Positions 7,472 through 15,256 of a stretch of DNA of 64,000 nt are shown here, in pieces; the stretch's first letter is position 1, and each line of letters starts with the position of its first letter. The stretch comes from Halorussus halophilus. Its GTDB lineage: Archaea > Halobacteriota > Halobacteria > Halobacteriales > Haladaptataceae. The notes beneath the pieces were generated by a model that worked only from the letters and a program-made list of their open reading frames with translations, made no database searches and was not told where the DNA came from. Location of the stretch: assembly GCF_008831545.1 (NCBI RefSeq), contig NZ_CP044523.1, positions 2,046,001 through 2,110,000 on the forward strand. Reading direction: 5' to 3'. The translations under genes and the position numbers were made by a program.

Positions 7472-9039
7472 GCGTGTTCACCTCCCTGTAGGACCGAATC
7501 GATGTACGCCTGTCGGTCCAGTGCGGCGTTCGCACCCGCTTCCGCGGCGCGGTACACCACGTCGAAGCCGATGCCGAGGACCACGATGGCGACTGCGAGC
7601 AACAGGACGACCGCGACGAGCGAGACGCGCGAGTCGCCGTGCTGGACGAGGAGGCTGGGTTCGCCCCAGAAGCCGCGGTTCCACGCCCGCGAGAAGTACG
7701 CGATAGTTAGGATGGCCCCGACCAGCGCGACGGCGAGCGCGAGGTTCGACCCGGCGCGACCCGCCGCGTCGAAGACGAGCAACTTGCCGAAGAAGCCCGA
7801 CAGCGGTGGGATGCCGATGAGTGCGAGCGCGCCGACGAAGAAACTCCCCGAGAGGACCGGAGCCTTCTCGCTCAGTCCACCGAGGTCCGGAAACTCCGTG
7901 GTGCCGACGGTGTCGTACACCGCGCCGCTCGCCAAGAAGAGCAGTCCCTTAGCGAACCCGTGGTTGAGCGCGTAGACGAGCGCCGCGGCGACGCCGAGCG
8001 TCTGGATGGTCGAATCGCCGCTCGTCGCCGCGATAGCCAACGGCAGGACGATGAACCCGACCTGTCCGATGGAGGAGTACGCGAGCAGTCCGTCGATGTC
8101 GTCGCGACCGACCGCGCCGAAGCCGCCGACGAGGATGCTCGCTGTCGCCATGGCGAACAGAATCGGGCCGTAGAACGCAAGTAAGGAGTCTCCCGAGAAG
8201 CCCGGCAGTGCGAGTTCGCCGATGGTCGCCGCACTGAATATCGTGAAGTAGAGCCGAACGATGGCGTAGACACCGACCTTCTTCACGACGCCCGCAAGCA
8301 TCGCCGACACTGGTGCCGGAGCGGCGCGGTACGCGGCGGGCACCCAGAACTGGAACGGCACGAGTCCGGCCTTCAGCGCGAACACCGCAAACAGGAGTGC
8401 CGAGAGACCGAGTACTGGCGCAGGTGCCGTGCCACCCGACTGTAGCAGTTGGGCGAGGTCGGCCATGTTCAGCGTCCCCGTCGTCGAGTAGAGACCGCCG
8501 ATTGCCAACAGCATGACCGCACTCCCGACTAGGTTGAGGACCACGTACTGGAGCGCGGCGCGGGTGTGTTGTGGCCCGCTGTAGAAGACCACGAGGACGT
8601 AGCTCGACATGAGCATCACTTCGAACCAGACGAAGAGGTTGAAGATGTCGCCCGTGAGGAACGACCCCGTGACGCCGACCATCATGAAGTGGTACAGCGG
8701 GTGGTAGGAGACGCGCTGGCCGAACGCATCGACGTAGACCGTCGAGTAGGCGAGCGCGCCGAGCGAGATGAGAGCCGAGAACGACAGCATGAACGCCGAC
8801 AGGGAGTCGGCGACCAGCGTGATGCCGTACGGCGCGACCCAGCCGGAGAGTTGGTAGCTGAACGTGTTCGCCGCGCCGAGCGGGTCTACGTCGGCCACGA
8901 GCGCGTACACTGCCGCGACGTAGCCGAGGCCGCCAGCGAGGCTCAGAGCGACCTGCACTCTGTTGAACCGGCGAGTGAGCAGTGTCGCGATCGCCGTGAC
9001 GAGCGCGACGAGCAGGGGTGCGATGACCATCTGATTCAT
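7468..9039 (-). CDS. mnhD: Mrp-type cation:proton antiporter subunit D (proton-translocating, NuoN/M-like)
   Basis: 523 residues, about 14 helices. The family core includes FNLFVWFEVMLMSSYVLV (first helix with the essential Glu) and ALKAGLVPFQFWVPAAYRAAP with VKKVGVYAIVR, carrying the membrane lysines used in proton transfer in complex I antiporter-like subunits. MnhD and MnhA are the two large channel subunits of the Mrp antiporter. The start ATG at 9039 overlaps the end of mnhC by 4 bp and its stop overlaps mnhE. Length is normal. Confidence 0.95.
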   Translation of the reverse strand: MNQMVIAPLLVALVTAIATLLTRRFNRVQVALSLAGGLGYVAAVYALVADVDPLGAANTFSYQLSGWVAPYGITLVADSLSAFMLSFSALISLGALAYSTVYVDAFGQRVSYHPLYHFMMVGVTGSFLTGDIFNLFVWFEVMLMSSYVLVVFYSGPQHTRAALQYVVLNLVGSAVMLLAIGGLYSTTGTLNMADLAQLLQSGGTAPAPVLGLSALLFAVFALKAGLVPFQFWVPAAYRAAPAPVSAMLAGVVKKVGVYAIVRLYFTIFSAATIGELALPGFSGDSLLAFYGPILFAMATASILVGGFGAVGRDDIDGLLAYSSIGQVGFIVLPLAIAATSGDSTIQTLGVAAALVYALNHGFAKGLLFLASGAVYDTVGTTEFPDLGGLSEKAPVLSGSFFVGALALIGIPPLSGFFGKLLVFDAAGRAGSNLALAVALVGAILTIAYFSRAWNRGFWGEPSLLVQHGDSRVSLVAVVLLLAVAIVVLGIGFDVVYRAAEAGANAALDRQAYIDSVLQGGEHA

Positions 9040-9856: not shown

Positions 9857-12273
9857 TGAGTCTCACCTCGTTCGCGCATGGCGATGAGGGTCAGTACGGA
9901 GAGGGCAGCCATGGCGACGACCGAAATCTCGCCCATGGTGTCGAACGCCCGGAAGTCCACGAGGATGACGTTCACGATGTTGTGGCCGCCTGCTTCCTCC
10001 ACGGTGACTGCGTAGTCCCTGAAGTAGTTGGCAATGCTCTCTTGGCTGGGGTCCGCGGCCGTCGAGACGAGGACGGTGACGAACACCGTCGCGCCGACGA
10101 CCACCGAGAGGACGCCGTCGCGTATCATCTTCGCGCCGCCGACGTTGCCGTAGAACGCGGGCAATCTGTCGAGGACGAGCAGGAAGATGACGAGCGCGAG
10201 CGTCTCGACCACGAGTTGGGTCAGCGCGAGGTCCGGCGCGTCCGCGAGGACGTAGAACACCGCGACCATGAACCCGAGAATCGAGAGGGTCAACACGCCC
10301 GAGATGTGCGAGGGCGCGATGCTCACCGCAATCGCGCCGACGACGGCGACCAGCAGGACGAGTAGCATCGGGAGCGTGACTTCGAACCCGCCGAGGCTTC
10401 CCGGAACTGCCGGAATCGCGACGCCCGCCGCGAGGTAGCCACCGAGTGCCAGCGCGGAGATGGACGCCAGCGCCCACGTCGCGTACGTTCGGAGCAGGCC
10501 GTTCTGGACGGTGCCAGCCACGGTGTCGCTGAAGTCGTTCAGACCCTCGGTTGCGCCGTCGTAGTACCAGTTAGCAGTCAAGGGCGGCACCGACGTAATC
10601 GAGTTGACGCCGTCGTGCAGTCGGTCGTAGAACGGATAGGCCGCCGCGCCGACCGCGATGGTAATCGCGCTCATCGTGAGCGCAGGCGTGATGTGGTCGG
10701 GGATGTAGTAACTGAACCCGTGGAACTCCGCGCCCGGCGGCAACGCCGACTGGGTCACTTCGGCGACGAAGTGGTCGAACGCCGAGAGGTGAATTCCAAA
10801 GGTTCCGAGGATGCCGCCGATGCCGATGATGCCCGCGACGACTGCGAGCAGGAGCGGCGGCGCGAGCATCGTCTTCGGCGGCGAGTGAACCGTGTGGAGT
10901 CCGCGTGGCTTCTCGCCGTAGAACAGCATCATGAACTTGATGGAGTAGAGGAACGTGAAGACGCTCCCGAACACCGCGACGGCGGGGTAGAGCCACGCCA
11001 GACTACCGAGCGCGGCGAGTTCGTGGTGCGTCGCAGCGTGGTAGGACGCTTCGAAGAGTAGTTCCTTAGAGTAGAAGCCATTGAACGGCGGGACGCCTGC
11101 CATCCCGAGTGCGGCAATCGTCGCGATTGCCGCCGTTATCGGGAGGTCCTCTCTGAGACCGCTCAGCTTGTCGATTTTTCTCGTTCCGGCTTCGTGGGCG
11201 ACGATGCCCGCCACGAGGAAGAGTGCGGCCTTGAACGTCGCATGGTTGATGATGTGGAACGCGCCGGTCTCCGCGCCGTAGATGGACGCGAAACCGAACC
11301 CGGCGACGATGAGACCGAGGTGGCTGGCGGTCGAGTACGCCAGCAGTTCCTTGATGTCGGTCGCACCGACCGCGAGAATCGCGGTTATCGTCATCGTCAA
11401 CAAGCCGAGCGTGGCCAGAATCAGCGTCCACTCCTCGCCGACGAAGACGGGACGGAACCGGCCGATGAGGTAGACGCCCGCCTTCACCATCGTCGCGGAG
11501 TGCAGGAACGCCGAAACGGGCGTGGGGGCTTCCATCGCGTTCGGAAGCCAGATGTGAAGCGGCACCTGCGCGGACTTCGCCGCCGCGCCGACCACGAGCA
11601 GGGCGAGTGCAGGCAGGAAGACGCCTGCGCCTCGTAGCGTTTCGACCGTCTGCTCGGGGTTCGAGATGATGCCGTCCGCGCCGAACATGGCGAACGTGCC
11701 AGTCGCGTCGTGGACGAGCAAGAACCCGACGAGCATGAACAGGCCACCCGCGACGGTGATGAGCATCGACTTGCGGGCGGCGTACTGCGAACTCCCAGTC
11801 CGTTGGTAGTGACCGATGAGTACGAACGACGAGAGGCTAGTCAACTCCCAAAACACGAAGAGGGCGATGAGGTCCGCCGCGAAGGCGACGCCCAACATCG
11901 ACCCCATAAACGCGAGTAGCGCGGCGTAGTACTTCGCCTGTCCCGGTTCGCCGTGCATGTACCCGCCGGAGTAGGTGAGGATGAGCACGCCCACGCCGCT
12001 GGCCAGGAACCCGATGAGCAGGGAAAGACCATCGACGTAGAAACTGAGCGCTACTCCGCCTCCGTACGAGGGTATCCACGGGACCGAGACAGTGCCGTGC
12101 GTGCCGTACTGGCTGGCGACGAGTCCGAAACACGCCAGCGCGACGGCCGCCGCGAAGTAGGCTGTCCGCTCGCCCAACGCGCGATAGACCAGCGGCGTCA
12201 CCGCCGCGGCTACGAACGGCAGAAACACGACGGCGAGGACCGCCGCGGCTACTGGGTCCGTTGTCGGTTGCAC
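9853..12273 (-). CDS. mnhA: Mrp-type cation:proton antiporter subunit A (NuoL-like, with C-terminal MbhD/MbhE-like region)
   Basis: 806 residues starting with GTG at 12273. The N-terminal 500 residues are the NuoL-type proton channel: FVFWELTSLSSFVLIGHY has the key Glu, and KSAQVPLHIWLPNAMEAPTP then HSATMVKAGVYLIGRF carry the conserved Lys and His. The C-terminal part (LTLSILGFMVAVFYVLADAP, then FDTMGEISVVAMAALSVLTL) corresponds to the MbhD/MbhE-like helices found in long MrpA proteins. It is the first gene of mnhABCDEFG. A TATA box sits 25-30 bases before the GTG. The complex couples the proton gradient to Na+ extrusion, important for a halophile. Confidence 0.95.
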   Translation of the reverse strand: MQPTTDPVAAAVLAVVFLPFVAAAVTPLVYRALGERTAYFAAAVALACFGLVASQYGTHGTVSVPWIPSYGGGVALSFYVDGLSLLIGFLASGVGVLILTYSGGYMHGEPGQAKYYAALLAFMGSMLGVAFAADLIALFVFWELTSLSSFVLIGHYQRTGSSQYAARKSMLITVAGGLFMLVGFLLVHDATGTFAMFGADGIISNPEQTVETLRGAGVFLPALALLVVGAAAKSAQVPLHIWLPNAMEAPTPVSAFLHSATMVKAGVYLIGRFRPVFVGEEWTLILATLGLLTMTITAILAVGATDIKELLAYSTASHLGLIVAGFGFASIYGAETGAFHIINHATFKAALFLVAGIVAHEAGTRKIDKLSGLREDLPITAAIATIAALGMAGVPPFNGFYSKELLFEASYHAATHHELAALGSLAWLYPAVAVFGSVFTFLYSIKFMMLFYGEKPRGLHTVHSPPKTMLAPPLLLAVVAGIIGIGGILGTFGIHLSAFDHFVAEVTQSALPPGAEFHGFSYYIPDHITPALTMSAITIAVGAAAYPFYDRLHDGVNSITSVPPLTANWYYDGATEGLNDFSDTVAGTVQNGLLRTYATWALASISALALGGYLAAGVAIPAVPGSLGGFEVTLPMLLVLLVAVVGAIAVSIAPSHISGVLTLSILGFMVAVFYVLADAPDLALTQLVVETLALVIFLLVLDRLPAFYGNVGGAKMIRDGVLSVVVGATVFVTVLVSTAADPSQESIANYFRDYAVTVEEAGGHNIVNVILVDFRAFDTMGEISVVAMAALSVLTLIAMRERGETQ

Positions 12274-12297
12274 GTGCGTGAGTCACCCCGGACTCGA

Positions 12298-12304
12298 CTT
12301 AACA
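12298..12304 (-). promoter_or_regulatory. TATA-like box of the mnh operon
   Basis: On the minus strand the sequence reads CTGTTAAG, centred about 28 bases before the GTG start of mnhA at 12273. This supports both the GTG start and a leaderless operon mRNA. Confidence 0.5.
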
Positions 12305-12407
12305 GTTCTCAAACCGTGTGGGGTCGCCGGGAGTGAGGGTTTGACGGTCGTCCAGTTCGTCGCGCTCTCACGCTACACACGAGTGGTTTTGGTCACTCCT
12401 CGGCCGG

Positions 12408-13163
12408 TCAGGAGTCGTCGGCGAAGGTCTGTTCGTCGGTCGCTTCGTCGTCCAACGCCTGCGCGCGGGCCGCCAGAAACGACCCGAATCGCTCGGCGTA
12501 CTCACGCACGGAGTAAGCACCACGTGCCTGAACGTCGTCGGCACTCGGCGAGCGGCCGAGTTCGTCGGCGAGTCGGCGCACGTCCGCGAGCAGTTCTGTC
12601 TCGGACACGTCGCTCTTTGTTCGATTCGTGGCGAAGTCAACCTCCGCGAGCGCGGCCCGCCACGACCCGAATCGACGGTGGTACGTCACGGGCGCGTATT
12701 CGCCGTACTCCTCCATCTCCTCGGCAGTCGGTGGTTGGTCCAGTTCGTCGGCCAGTCGCGTCAGTTCTTGACGGAGGTCCTTCTCGGAAATCTCGTTGGT
12801 CGAGAGCATCGCCTGTTCGATGGCTGCGTTCCAACTCCCGAACCGCGTCTGGTACGTGCGCGTGGAGTACTCGCCGTGGTCGGCCATGTCCCGCTGGGTG
12901 GGCGTCTTCCCCAACTCGGTGTGGAGTCGCTGTAACTCCGCCAGCAACTCGCGGTCGGGAATCGATTTCCCCATGTCGCCGGGGTCGAGTCCGGCCGCTT
13001 CGAGGGCTTCGTCCCACCCGTCGAACACCTCGAAGTACCGCTGTGGGTCACAGTCGCCCTGCTCGTGCATCTCGACTACCGTCGGTGTCTTCCCGAGTCG
13101 CGCGGCCAGCGACTGAAGCGCCGACCGCAGTGTCGTCTCGTCCGCGCGACTCGCTCGACTCAT
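12408..13163 (-). CDS. Protein of four homing-endonuclease-associated repeats (HNH-repeat family), no nuclease domain
   Basis: 251 residues consisting almost entirely of four repeats of about 45 residues plus linkers. Each follows the pattern L..ELGKTPT..DM...GEYS...Y..RFGSW..A: LGKTPTVVEMHEQGD, LGKTPTQRDMADHGEYS, LDQPPTAEEMEEYGEYAP and LGRSPSADDVQARGAYS. This is the homing endonuclease associated repeat, usually found beside HNH or homing nuclease domains and thought to bind DNA. No HNH, GIY or LAGLIDADG motif is present, so the protein may act only in DNA recognition. A related three-repeat protein is encoded at 13980-14540, on the other side of a pilin gene. A TATA-like box lies upstream. 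Confidence 0.85.
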   Translation of the reverse strand: MSRASRADETTLRSALQSLAARLGKTPTVVEMHEQGDCDPQRYFEVFDGWDEALEAAGLDPGDMGKSIPDRELLAELQRLHTELGKTPTQRDMADHGEYSTRTYQTRFGSWNAAIEQAMLSTNEISEKDLRQELTRLADELDQPPTAEEMEEYGEYAPVTYHRRFGSWRAALAEVDFATNRTKSDVSETELLADVRRLADELGRSPSADDVQARGAYSVREYAERFGSFLAARAQALDDEATDEQTFADDS

Positions 13164-13188
13164 TGGTGGTCACTTTTGCGAGAGATAC

Positions 13189-13196
13189 CTTAAAAC
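13189..13196 (-). promoter_or_regulatory. TATA-like box of the four-repeat protein gene
   Basis: On the minus strand GTTTTAAG is centred 29 bases before the ATG at 13163, the distance expected for a leaderless archaeal transcript. Confidence 0.5.
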
Positions 13197-13411
13197 TGCG
13201 CGTTGTTTGTAGTGAATGTTAGCCTCTGTGACGTGCGTGCGATGTTCTCACATTCCGGAAAGTATCATGTTGTATAATTCTATTTTCAGGTAAGCAAGTA
13301 TTTATATAGGTGGCCTCTCAAGAGGATTTGTAAGCACGAATTAACGCCGAGAAAATGCCGGTCTGGGGCGGCTTGACAACCCTTCCGACGATTCAAACGA
13401 GGATTGTTGGA

Positions 13412-13420
13412 CTTATAAAG
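13412..13420 (+). promoter_or_regulatory. TATA box of the pilin gene
   Basis: CTTATAAAG is about 60 bases before the ATG at 13477. Transcription would start near 13440, leaving a leader of about 37 bases with a GGAG at 13460-13463. This gene therefore appears to have a leadered mRNA, unlike most genes in this window. Confidence 0.55.
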
Positions 13421-13476
13421 GACACGGCCAATTCTCGGACGTGAGAACGTGCGTGAAAACGGAGAAATCAAAACAC

Positions 13477-13866
13477 ATGAGCCTCAAACAAGAACTCAAA
13501 GAGAAGCTGTCGGAAACACGAGCTGTGAGCCCGGTCATCGGAGTAATCTTGATGGTCGCCATCACAGTTATTCTTGCTGCAATTATAGGGACATTTGTCC
13601 TTGGACTCGGTGAGAATGTACAGTCGAACGCGTCTGCGGGTGTCGTGGAATCCGCTGCGAACGACAAAGCAGTGACATTGAATTCACTAGGTCCGAATAC
13701 GGACGGTGTCAAGTGTGCAGGCGCAAGCTATCCGAACCTGGCCACACAATCTGTTGAACAAGTCGGTCAGACTCTTGACTGTACTGGAACGGGTGCCGAT
13801 TCCATTGTCGCCTACAGCACGAATGGAGACGCTTCAAACGCGTCGGTATTCACGTTCGACAACTAA
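13477..13866 (+). CDS. Archaeal type IV pilin (PilA-like, N-terminal pilin domain)
   Basis: 129 residues from the ATG at 13477. A basic leader with SETRAVSPVIGVILMVAITV is the haloarchaeal pilin signature: prepilin peptidase would cut just before the hydrophobic helix that builds the filament core. The helix continues as ILAAIIGTFVLGLG. The mature domain is small and rich in Ser, Asn and Ala with two cysteines (VKCAGAS and LDCTGTG), which could form a disulfide. No pilus assembly genes (pilB, pilC) are nearby, so assembly would rely on machinery elsewhere. The gene is AT-richer than its neighbours and has more A/T-ending codons, consistent with horizontal transfer or rapid diversification, common for surface pilins. 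Confidence 0.88.
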   Translation: MSLKQELKEKLSETRAVSPVIGVILMVAITVILAAIIGTFVLGLGENVQSNASAGVVESAANDKAVTLNSLGPNTDGVKCAGASYPNLATQSVEQVGQTLDCTGTGADSIVAYSTNGDASNASVFTFDN

Positions 13867-13877
13867 ACCGATTAACA

Positions 13878-13884
13878 TTTTTTT
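13878..13884 (+). terminator. Poly-T terminator after the pilin gene
   Basis: A run of seven T residues begins 12 bases after the pilin stop codon. Archaeal RNA polymerase commonly terminates at such U-rich tracts without needing a hairpin. Confidence 0.5.
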
Positions 13885-13979
13885 CGGTGAGAAGTACGAC
13901 GTCACAACTTCGATAGAGAACGGTATCGACTACGAAGCGTCTGGGCAGATTCTACCAACAACGAAGACCTAACGTTGCT

Positions 13980-14540
13980 CTATCGATCCGATTCCAACCC
14001 CGCCGCTTCCAACGCCGCGCCCCACGAGTCGAACGCGCGGTAGTAGGGTCGTTGGGAGAAGTCGCCCAACTCGTTCATGTCCTGCTGGGTAGGCGTCCGC
14101 CCGATTTCGTCGCGGAGGGCCCAGAGAGCGGCGACCAGCGCGCACTCGGGAATCCGTCTGCTCGTTCTGGTCTCTCCGGCCAGCCCCGCTTGCTCCTTCG
14201 CCGCTGCCCACGACCCGAAGCGTCGGGTGTAGGTGTGCGGCGAGAACTCGCCGTGGTCGTCCATGTCCTCGAAGCGGGGGAGTCGGTCCAACTCGTTGCG
14301 CACTCGCCGCAATTCCTCGCACAACTCCTCGTCGCTGATGTCGGTGCGGTGGTTCGTCGTCAGTCCAGCGGCGGCCAGTGCGTCGTTCCAACTGCCCCAT
14401 TCGGAGTAGTAGGGGGTCGACGAGTACGGACCGTTCTCGTTCATCTGGGCGCGGGTCGGCGTCTCTCCCAACGCTACGGCGAAGTTCTGCAACGCCTCGA
14501 CCAACTTCTCTCGCGGAATCTCGCTCGCCATCGTAGTCAC
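13980..14540 (-). CDS. Protein of three homing-endonuclease-associated repeats, no nuclease domain
   Basis: 186 residues with three repeats of the same family as the gene at 12408-13163: LGETPTRAQMNENGPYS, LDRLPRFEDMDDHGEFS and IGRTPTQQDMNELGDFS. Each is followed by a Y...F/W-GSW (or DSW) segment and an Ala-rich helix ending in AGL. No catalytic domain is visible. Start codons at 14540 (MTTMASEIPREK) or four codons later are both possible. It reads toward the pilin gene, tail to tail, with 113 bp between. Likely a DNA-binding protein; whether it controls the pilin is only a guess from position. Confidence 0.83.
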   Translation of the reverse strand: MTTMASEIPREKLVEALQNFAVALGETPTRAQMNENGPYSSTPYYSEWGSWNDALAAAGLTTNHRTDISDEELCEELRRVRNELDRLPRFEDMDDHGEFSPHTYTRRFGSWAAAKEQAGLAGETRTSRRIPECALVAALWALRDEIGRTPTQQDMNELGDFSQRPYYRAFDSWGAALEAAGLESDR

Positions 14541-14660
14541 AAATGACTATTTCGTCACCGTATATGTATTTTCGGCCGTGAGGCGTGGAACGAACTCGCG
14601 CTGTACGAGTGGGGACGACACCCATGGCAACGACTCTGTGAGGCGACCAGATACCGTCAC

Positions 14661-14669
14661 CTTTTATTA
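14661..14669 (+). promoter_or_regulatory. TATA box of hpt
   Basis: CTTTTATTA lies 21-29 bases before the ATG at 14690, consistent with a leaderless transcript. Confidence 0.55.
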
Positions 14670-14689
14670 GCGCATCGAGTACACCCAAC

Positions 14690-15256
14690 ATGGATAAGCT
14701 GAAGCAGTCGCTGCTCGACGCTCCCATCATCGAGAAGGACGGTTACCACTACTTCGTACATCCCATCAGCGACGGGATTCCCGTCCTCGAACCCAGTCTC
14801 CTGCGCGAAATCGTCATCCGAATCATTCGGAAAGCCGAACTGGAGGACGTGGACAAAATCGTCACCCCCGCGGCGATGGGCATCCACATCTCGACTGCGG
14901 TGTCGCTAATGACCGACATCCCGTTGGTGGTCATCCGTAAGCGCGAGTACGGACTGGAGGGTGAAGTCGCGCTCTCCCAGCAGACGGGCTACTCCGAGAA
15001 CGAGATGTACGTCAACAACGTCCACGAGGGCGACCGCGTCCTCCTGTTGGACGACGTTCTCAGCACCGGCGGTACGATGAAGGCCATCACCGAGGCGCTC
15101 GACCACATCGGCGCTGACGTGGCTGACGTGGTCGCAGTCATCAAGAAAGTCGGCCCGAACGAGTTGGACGACACCAACTACGACGTGAAGACGCTCATCA
15201 ACGTGGACGTACAGGACGGACAAGTCGTCATCGACGACGAACACGGCGACGGATAG
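14690..15256 (+). CDS. hpt: Hypoxanthine/guanine phosphoribosyltransferase (archaeal HGPRTase)
   Basis: 188 residues, normal for archaeal HGPRTase. The PRPP-binding motif [13 protein letters not shown] is at about residues 117-129. The N-terminal segment ([19 protein letters not shown]) and the [20 protein letters not shown] stretch match the archaeal Hpt subfamily rather than the bacterial one. The enzyme transfers ribose 5-phosphate from PRPP to hypoxanthine or guanine in cytosolic purine salvage. The gene stands alone with its own TATA box. Downstream is a repeat-rich spacer leading to a tRNA gene. Confidence 0.9.

Follow-up and report, generated by a model that had tools for sequence, protein, structure and literature searches.

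The DNA analysed here, a 64,000-nucleotide stretch of the Halorussus halophilus genome (the window), contains a type IV pilin gene that is flanked, according to gene calls and profile searches, by genes for two repeat proteins, RP1 and RP2. RP1 is divergent to the pilin and RP2 is convergent to it. Both proteins are built of a 54-residue repeat that scores above the curated cut-off of PF18780 (HNH_repeat), which makes them members of this family. They share with other PF18780 proteins the construction from clean repeat copies, but differ in being linked to pilin genes and in lacking a nuclease; a profile search finds no HNH nuclease domain in RP1 or RP2. In the open literature, our search found the family in only one modelling table (PMC8078820). 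The gene between them matches the profiles for an archaeal type IV pilin (Pilin_N and the class III signal) and encodes an ordinary member of the haloarchaeal PilA family (PF07790). The region is AT-richer than the surrounding DNA (51% GC versus ~62%). These results confirm the original prediction of two repeat-only proteins, with four and three copies, around a pilin gene in AT-richer DNA, and show that the array is genuine, its units belonging to a repeat family already in Pfam, so that the likeness is not due to chance. The genes and elements of the locus are given below; those of the spacer were read from an alignment of 21 intergenic regions.

12408-13163, minus strand: RP1, 251 aa, four PF18780 HNH_repeat copies (E=2.5e-74, 245.9 bits, cut-off 26)
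13189-13194, minus strand: TATA-like element of RP1 (CTTAAA on the plus strand), ~27 bp from the RP1 ATG, kept in nearly all 21 regions
13273-13298, plus strand: upstream element TATAATTCTATTTTCAGGTAAGCAAG (alignment form TATAATNNNNTTTTCANNTAAGNAAG), immediately before the pilin TATA box; candidate operator for RP1, or BRE
13299-13308, plus strand: pilin TATA box TATTTATATA, from the alignment of 21 intergenic regions
13330-13476, plus strand: 5' leader of the pilin mRNA, predicted to form a structured RNA of ~147 nt, MFE -51.3 kcal/mol, z=-4.8
13384-13411, plus strand: hairpin B of the leader, TCCGACGATTC..GGATTGTTGGA, 11 pairs including 3 G.U
13460-13465, plus strand: Shine-Dalgarno-like CGGAGA, outside the leader stems
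13477-13866, plus strand: type IV pilin, 129 aa, N-terminus TRAVSPVIGVILMVAITVILAAIIG (PF07790 E=4.9e-16, TIGR02537 E=3.4e-13)
13980-14531, minus strand: RP2, 183 aa, three PF18780 copies (E=5.3e-62, 206.5 bits, cut-off 26); an alternative, longer GTG start is possible at 14540

The genome as a whole (4.45 Mb) holds three repeat-protein genes, two in the window and a third at 1.44 Mb, and five Pilin_N genes. All three repeat genes nonetheless lie within ~320 bp of a pilin, an adjacency that exceeds chance given how few genes of either kind there are (p about 0.002 for a random gene). The third pair also has the divergent layout, with an RP1-like protein 61% identical to RP1 and a pilin 67% identical to that of the window. 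Separately, the spacer between the stop codons of the pilin and RP2 (13867-13979) contains a remnant-like frame, EKYDVTTSIENGIDYEASGQILPTTKT.

Two lineages of repeat proteins beside pilin genes

We surveyed related genomes for the recurrence of this neighborhood, which the original prediction had proposed as its test, and found it widely. An RP1-type protein is present in all 18 Halorussus genomes, and in 17 of them its gene is divergent to one to three tandem pilins, giving 21 loci with a start-codon spacing of 289-336 bp, mostly 305-313 bp. In the exception, G001, RP1 lies 5.4 kb from the pilin and both genes are intact. These orthologous loci derive in part from one inherited event in a common ancestor. 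The RP1–pilin module is found in at least eight distinct neighborhoods, defined as gene-neighbor clusters, indicating that it keeps its form when relocated. The 33 best Pilin_N matches of Halorussus all fall within RP1-type loci, which identifies these as the major pilin locus of the genus. RP1 is under purifying selection, with dN/dS of 0.09-0.14 for most close pairs of orthologs and a median of 0.21. None of the RP1-type proteins was seen to carry a nuclease, and the phage matches to RP1 are weak and lie in a Geobacillus phage. Two single loci may be added: in Halorussus litoreus (L044:7752-10086), two tandem pilins are flanked by two RP1-clade proteins, a further case of repeat proteins on either side, and in G007 (L064:6747-8201) an RP1-clade protein is extended at its C-terminus by 307 residues that match no Pfam family.

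RP2 has a different affiliation. Its best relatives outside Halorussus are all pilin-adjacent, namely L222 (60% identity), L157/L090 (Halomarina rubra), L081, L092 (Halomarina oriensis), and L075/L072 (Haladaptatus-like). In the proteins of L072, L075, L081, L092, and L157, the C-terminal part is an HNH nuclease (PF01844), and their genes are convergent to the pilin at 21-2352 bp; the L222 protein has a C-terminal end that appears HNH-like by eye. The nearest relatives of RP2 thus combine repeats with a PF01844 domain, as in free-standing HNH homing endonucleases, a class from which RP1 and RP2 differ by having no nuclease domain and whose members are known here from sequence, with homing putative. 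RP2 aligns with three repeats of these relatives, which in the L222 protein are repeats 1-3 in co-linear order, and ends ahead of the nuclease. Repeat-only relatives also exist (L162, L174). Since most other members of its pilin-linked HNH-repeat clade carry the HNH nuclease, RP2 appears to have lost it.

In a tree built for 92 repeat proteins by a quick maximum-likelihood search, the RP1 clade has an SH-aLRT support of 99, while the RP2 clade, with modest support, is pilin-linked in nine of nine members from five families. Pilin-linked proteins outside these two clades amount to one or two separate cases. The pilin-adjacency label requires 5 changes on the tree, compared with 19.9 for shuffled labels, and none of 500 shuffles needs so few. 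The original prediction had treated the two flanking proteins as one phenomenon. Both are indeed linked to pilins, but they belong to different clades, and the two cases must be separated. We also considered, and rejected, a general pairing of HNH repeats with pilins: in a class-wide survey of best-scoring matches, most repeat-only proteins outside Halorussus have no adjoining pilin. The pairing is thus a property of particular clades and not of the repeat in general.

A predicted structured leader in the promoter spacer

The spacer at 13164-13476, which the original prediction had singled out, proves to be the key region of the locus, since it holds the upstream element, the pilin TATA box, and a structured leader RNA that the prediction overlooked. 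On the RP1 side, the position of the TATA-like element ~27 bp from the ATG suggests that the RP1 mRNA is leaderless. On the pilin side, a long block from AAGCACG to the Shine-Dalgarno-like site before the pilin ATG is conserved in the 21 regions. When up to two mismatches are allowed, every site of the upstream element in the Halorussus genomes falls at a leader–pilin promoter; 16 genomes have it, 15 of them with one site each and G008 with two. In G001 it stays with the pilin even though RP1 is 5.4 kb away.

The pilin transcript probably starts near 13330, ~22 nt past the TATA box, and would include the leader; we take the leader as transcribed because of the TATA position and the Shine-Dalgarno-like site. 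In its predicted fold, a long stem, P1, closes the structure; P2 (GAGAA../..TTCTC) and P3 are further stems, and two hairpins and an unpaired ATAAAG belong to a three-way junction. Folding of the 21 homologous leaders gives essentially one common layout, with z of about -2.5 to -6. RNAalifold on a plain sequence alignment recovers the invariant outer stem only, with no covariation, because hairpin B slides in register while the length of the segment stays near 32 nt. We therefore used an alignment-free test on P1b, P3, and hairpin B, in which the pairing of a leader's own two strands is compared with that of strands taken from different leaders. Cognate strands pair more strongly than non-cognate ones in P1b (-6.3 versus -4.9 kcal/mol, p=0.0005), P3 (-10.7 versus -9.1 kcal/mol, p=5e-5), and hairpin B (-14.1 versus -11.1 kcal/mol, p=5e-5); when the set is thinned to at most 75% identity, P3 and hairpin B stay significant and P1b does not. 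Among pairs chosen without regard to either type, G.U exceeds A.C by 32 to 12, as expected for RNA. The pair counts of the fitted alignment A3 serve as supporting evidence only, since it contains one chance antisense match (L044, E=0.16). The fold of this leader family, R1, is therefore conserved with compensatory changes, as in cis-regulatory leaders.

A covariance model of R1 finds 23 copies in 18 of 18 Halorussus genomes, each of which immediately precedes a pilin; two of these copies were outside the model-building set. With stricter filters, none is found in 81 genomes of other genera, and a plasmid search with the leader yields no match (E-values for R1, and for the second family below, are rough). 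R1 shares with Rfam cis-regulatory leaders such as riboswitches the 5' position, a covarying conserved fold, and a single adjoining gene family, but matches no Rfam 15 family: the best chance matches in window positions 12000-15000 score 12.9-20.3 bits, none near a gathering score, and at nine related leader loci the Rfam search returns only tRNA and CRISPR repeats. A second leader–pilin copy, with no intact RP1 beside it, is present in Halorussus marinus (L117:7557-8082); the frame upstream of this copy, at 8219-8863, has a weak resemblance to RP1 in decayed form.

Leaders of this kind extend beyond Halorussus. Natrialbaceae-type pilins near repeat proteins have leaders with an R1-like layout and a different sequence, and a pattern search revealed further ones directly upstream of pilins. 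A second covariance model, R2, built from seven of these leaders, matches in 60 of 391 haloarchaeal genomes. The R2 loci lie directly upstream of a pilin start in 30 of the 30 checked, 28 by script and two at contig edges by coordinates. In R2, 91% of cells are paired and 17 of 26 pairs show two-sided changes; two-sided compensatory cells number 64, compared with 23.6 in shuffled controls (0/500) and at most 30 when slid. A repeat protein lies within 1.5 kb at only 2 of the 30 loci, indicating that the R2 leader belongs to pilin mRNAs independently of the repeat proteins. The predicted layout common to R1 and R2 does not by itself imply homology between the families. We rejected the broader idea that structured leaders are general among haloarchaeal pilins, as 39 unselected leading pilins from other genera give an average z of -1.0 and the excess beside repeat proteins is weak.

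A possible two-layer control of the pilin gene

AlphaFold2 (AF2) models were used to ask what the repeats may do. RP1 is predicted to form four helices per repeat with an HTH-like middle (pLDDT 82; the pTM of 0.49 leaves the packing of the repeats uncertain), and a single repeat is modeled with helices at 5-19, 25-31, 36-43, and 46-55 (pLDDT 93.6). Foldseek and sequence searches find no significant solved relative of the repeat. The nearest PDB structures by TM-score, with non-significant E-values, are a SauUSI domain (7clg, 0.78) and the TetR regulator MphR(A) (3frq, 0.72), and weak sequence matches fall in the DNA-binding regions of Sigma70_r3, FliA/WhiG, and LexA. The models support, but do not prove, that the RP1 repeats are tandem DNA-binding HTH units. 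This is consistent with the original prediction that the repeats could be sequence-specific DNA-binding modules used as regulators. If RP1 does bind the upstream element, it would have a single target per pilin promoter.

These observations are best explained, at a probability of roughly 0.55, by a conserved module for pilin control, in which the divergent promoter would be regulated by RP1, a domesticated protein of tandem HTH units, with the leader providing a further, post-transcriptional layer. From left to right, the module would consist of RP1 (leftward), a two-promoter region of ~160 bp, the ~147-nt leader RNA, and the major pilin (rightward). RP1 would be an array of homing-endonuclease-type recognition repeats that has lost any nuclease, with each 54-aa repeat a four-helix HTH-like unit; three to five tandem repeats would read the conserved element beside the pilin TATA box, controlling the pilin promoter and probably also that of RP1 itself. 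The leader may act on translation initiation or mRNA stability of this abundant surface protein, and RP2 would come from a lineage of free-standing HNH-repeat proteins habitually found beside pilin genes and would have lost the nuclease. The architecture of the module is well supported, as are its recurrence, the covariation of the RNA, the purifying selection on RP1, and the upstream-element site at each pilin promoter, whereas DNA binding by RP1, regulation and its sign, and any ligand of the leader are inferred. Several observations count against this reading: the repeat has no significant solved relative, most repeat-only proteins outside Halorussus are not beside pilins, the Halorussus loci are in part of common descent, and the leader is not strictly tied to RP1, since one Halorussus leader has no intact RP1 beside it and, among Natrialbaceae-type leaders, the majority lack a repeat protein within 1.5 kb.

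There is precedent for a DNA-binding fold derived from homing enzymes acting as a regulator. WhiA is a transcription factor related to homing endonucleases, with an HTH and a homing-endonuclease domain (PMC3781837, PMC11701221). RP1 is likened to it by analogy only: it consists of tandem HNH-type repeats only, and is not a member of the WhiA family, which combines a LAGLIDADG-type domain with an HTH; the sole LAGLIDADG_3 match is below threshold (E=0.002, 18.8 bits versus a cut-off of 22.5). The leader sets the window's pilin apart from known haloarchaeal type IV pilins. Among the coding transcripts of Haloferax volcanii, 72% lack a leader, and structured leaders are described as 'not typical in haloarchaea' (PMC4983044). 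In the open literature, to which our search was confined, we found no report of this leader RNA or of HNH-repeat regulators of pilins; the two-layer control of a surface filament suggested here appears not to have been described before.

More generally, haloarchaeal pilins may be controlled by an unrecognized class of large structured leaders, with at least two families and a common three-way-junction layout, that is coupled at many loci to single-promoter regulators domesticated from the DNA-reading repeats of homing endonucleases. We offer this as a tentative generalization, slightly short of an even chance. Haloarchaea were believed to be sparing with structured leaders, most of their mRNAs having none (PMC4983044), and two pilin-specific covarying families, the first throughout the 18 Halorussus genomes searched and the second in 60 of the 391 haloarchaeal genomes sampled, would open archaeal post-transcriptional control to study at genes that drive adhesion and biofilms. 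With the repeat proteins, it could likewise be tested whether recognition modules of homing enzymes have become dedicated regulators, since one target site is predicted per Halorussus pilin promoter.

The flanking proteins could instead be selfish neighbors. HNH-repeat homing endonucleases would insert beside pilin genes or target them as a conserved multi-copy sequence, leaving RP1 and RP2 as nuclease-less relics or hitchhikers with no regulatory role. RP2 fits this account: its clade mostly carries the PF01844 HNH domain and is convergent to pilins in several families, RP2 itself matches repeats 1-3 of the L222 protein without the nuclease, the Halorussus relative L055 lacks RP2 at the same mrp-phosphoribosyltransferase site, and another genome (L076) keeps a one-repeat fragment. 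RP1 fits it poorly, being present in 18 of 18 Halorussus genomes with its position and orientation kept through relocation, with a dN/dS of 0.1-0.2 that does not indicate decay, and with no nuclease-bearing form seen. A homing-relic origin is thus plausible for RP2 and unlikely for RP1, and as an explanation of the locus we consider the selfish-neighbor account unlikely.

RP1 might also act on RNA, binding the folded leader and controlling translation or stability of the pilin mRNA. The leader and RP1 co-occur in every Halorussus genome, and outside Halorussus the regions upstream of pilins beside repeat proteins are somewhat more structured, a weak excess (p=0.037). Leaders without a nearby repeat protein are common, however, and the repeats resemble HTH units that bind DNA. 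This makes an RNA-binding role for RP1 quite improbable in our estimate. The conserved block could alternatively be a palindromic DNA operator and not an RNA element, given that inverted repeats are also symmetric DNA sites and that the antisense strand folds well too. This is very improbable in view of the compensatory changes in several helices, the preference for G.U over A.C, the 10-14 nt stems with bulges, the start ~22 nt past the TATA box, and the Shine-Dalgarno-like site before the ATG. Finally, we give hardly any credence to the suggestion in the original prediction that the locus is a small variable surface locus with a factor for pilin variation or against recombination, which could draw on relatives with two or three tandem pilins of identical N-termini and differing C-terminal parts, since the window's region has a single pilin with no silent cassettes noticed and the module is stably inherited, the gene pair being under purifying selection. 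No support was found for a role of the repeat proteins in defense or variation, and PADLOC gives no defense-model match for RP1 or RP2.

Several minor features were seen in other haloarchaeal genomes. Near-alike five-repeat HNH proteins in distant haloarchaeal genera (frames of ~410-450 aa in L068, L186, L187, L189, L190, and L197) look like recently spread mobile genes. On Natrinema and Halomontanus plasmids, an RP2-like gene overlaps a 264-aa gene that is divergent to the pilin. This conserved gene, with no Pfam match, recurs in Natrialbaceae plasmid cassettes (L282:3843-4634, L281:3161-3949, L284:1443-2234, L174:7096-7912), divergent to the pilin and mostly overlapping the RP2-like gene; its N-terminus appears HTH-like by eye, and it could encode a degenerate LAGLIDADG-type protein. 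A long CRISPR array adjoins the pilin–RP2 cassette in L174 (2279-5783). A second candidate upstream element, TTATCANNTTTGAAA, lies ~50-90 bp before the pilin TATA box in the Natrialbaceae-type loci L161, L162, L174, L281, L282, and L284.
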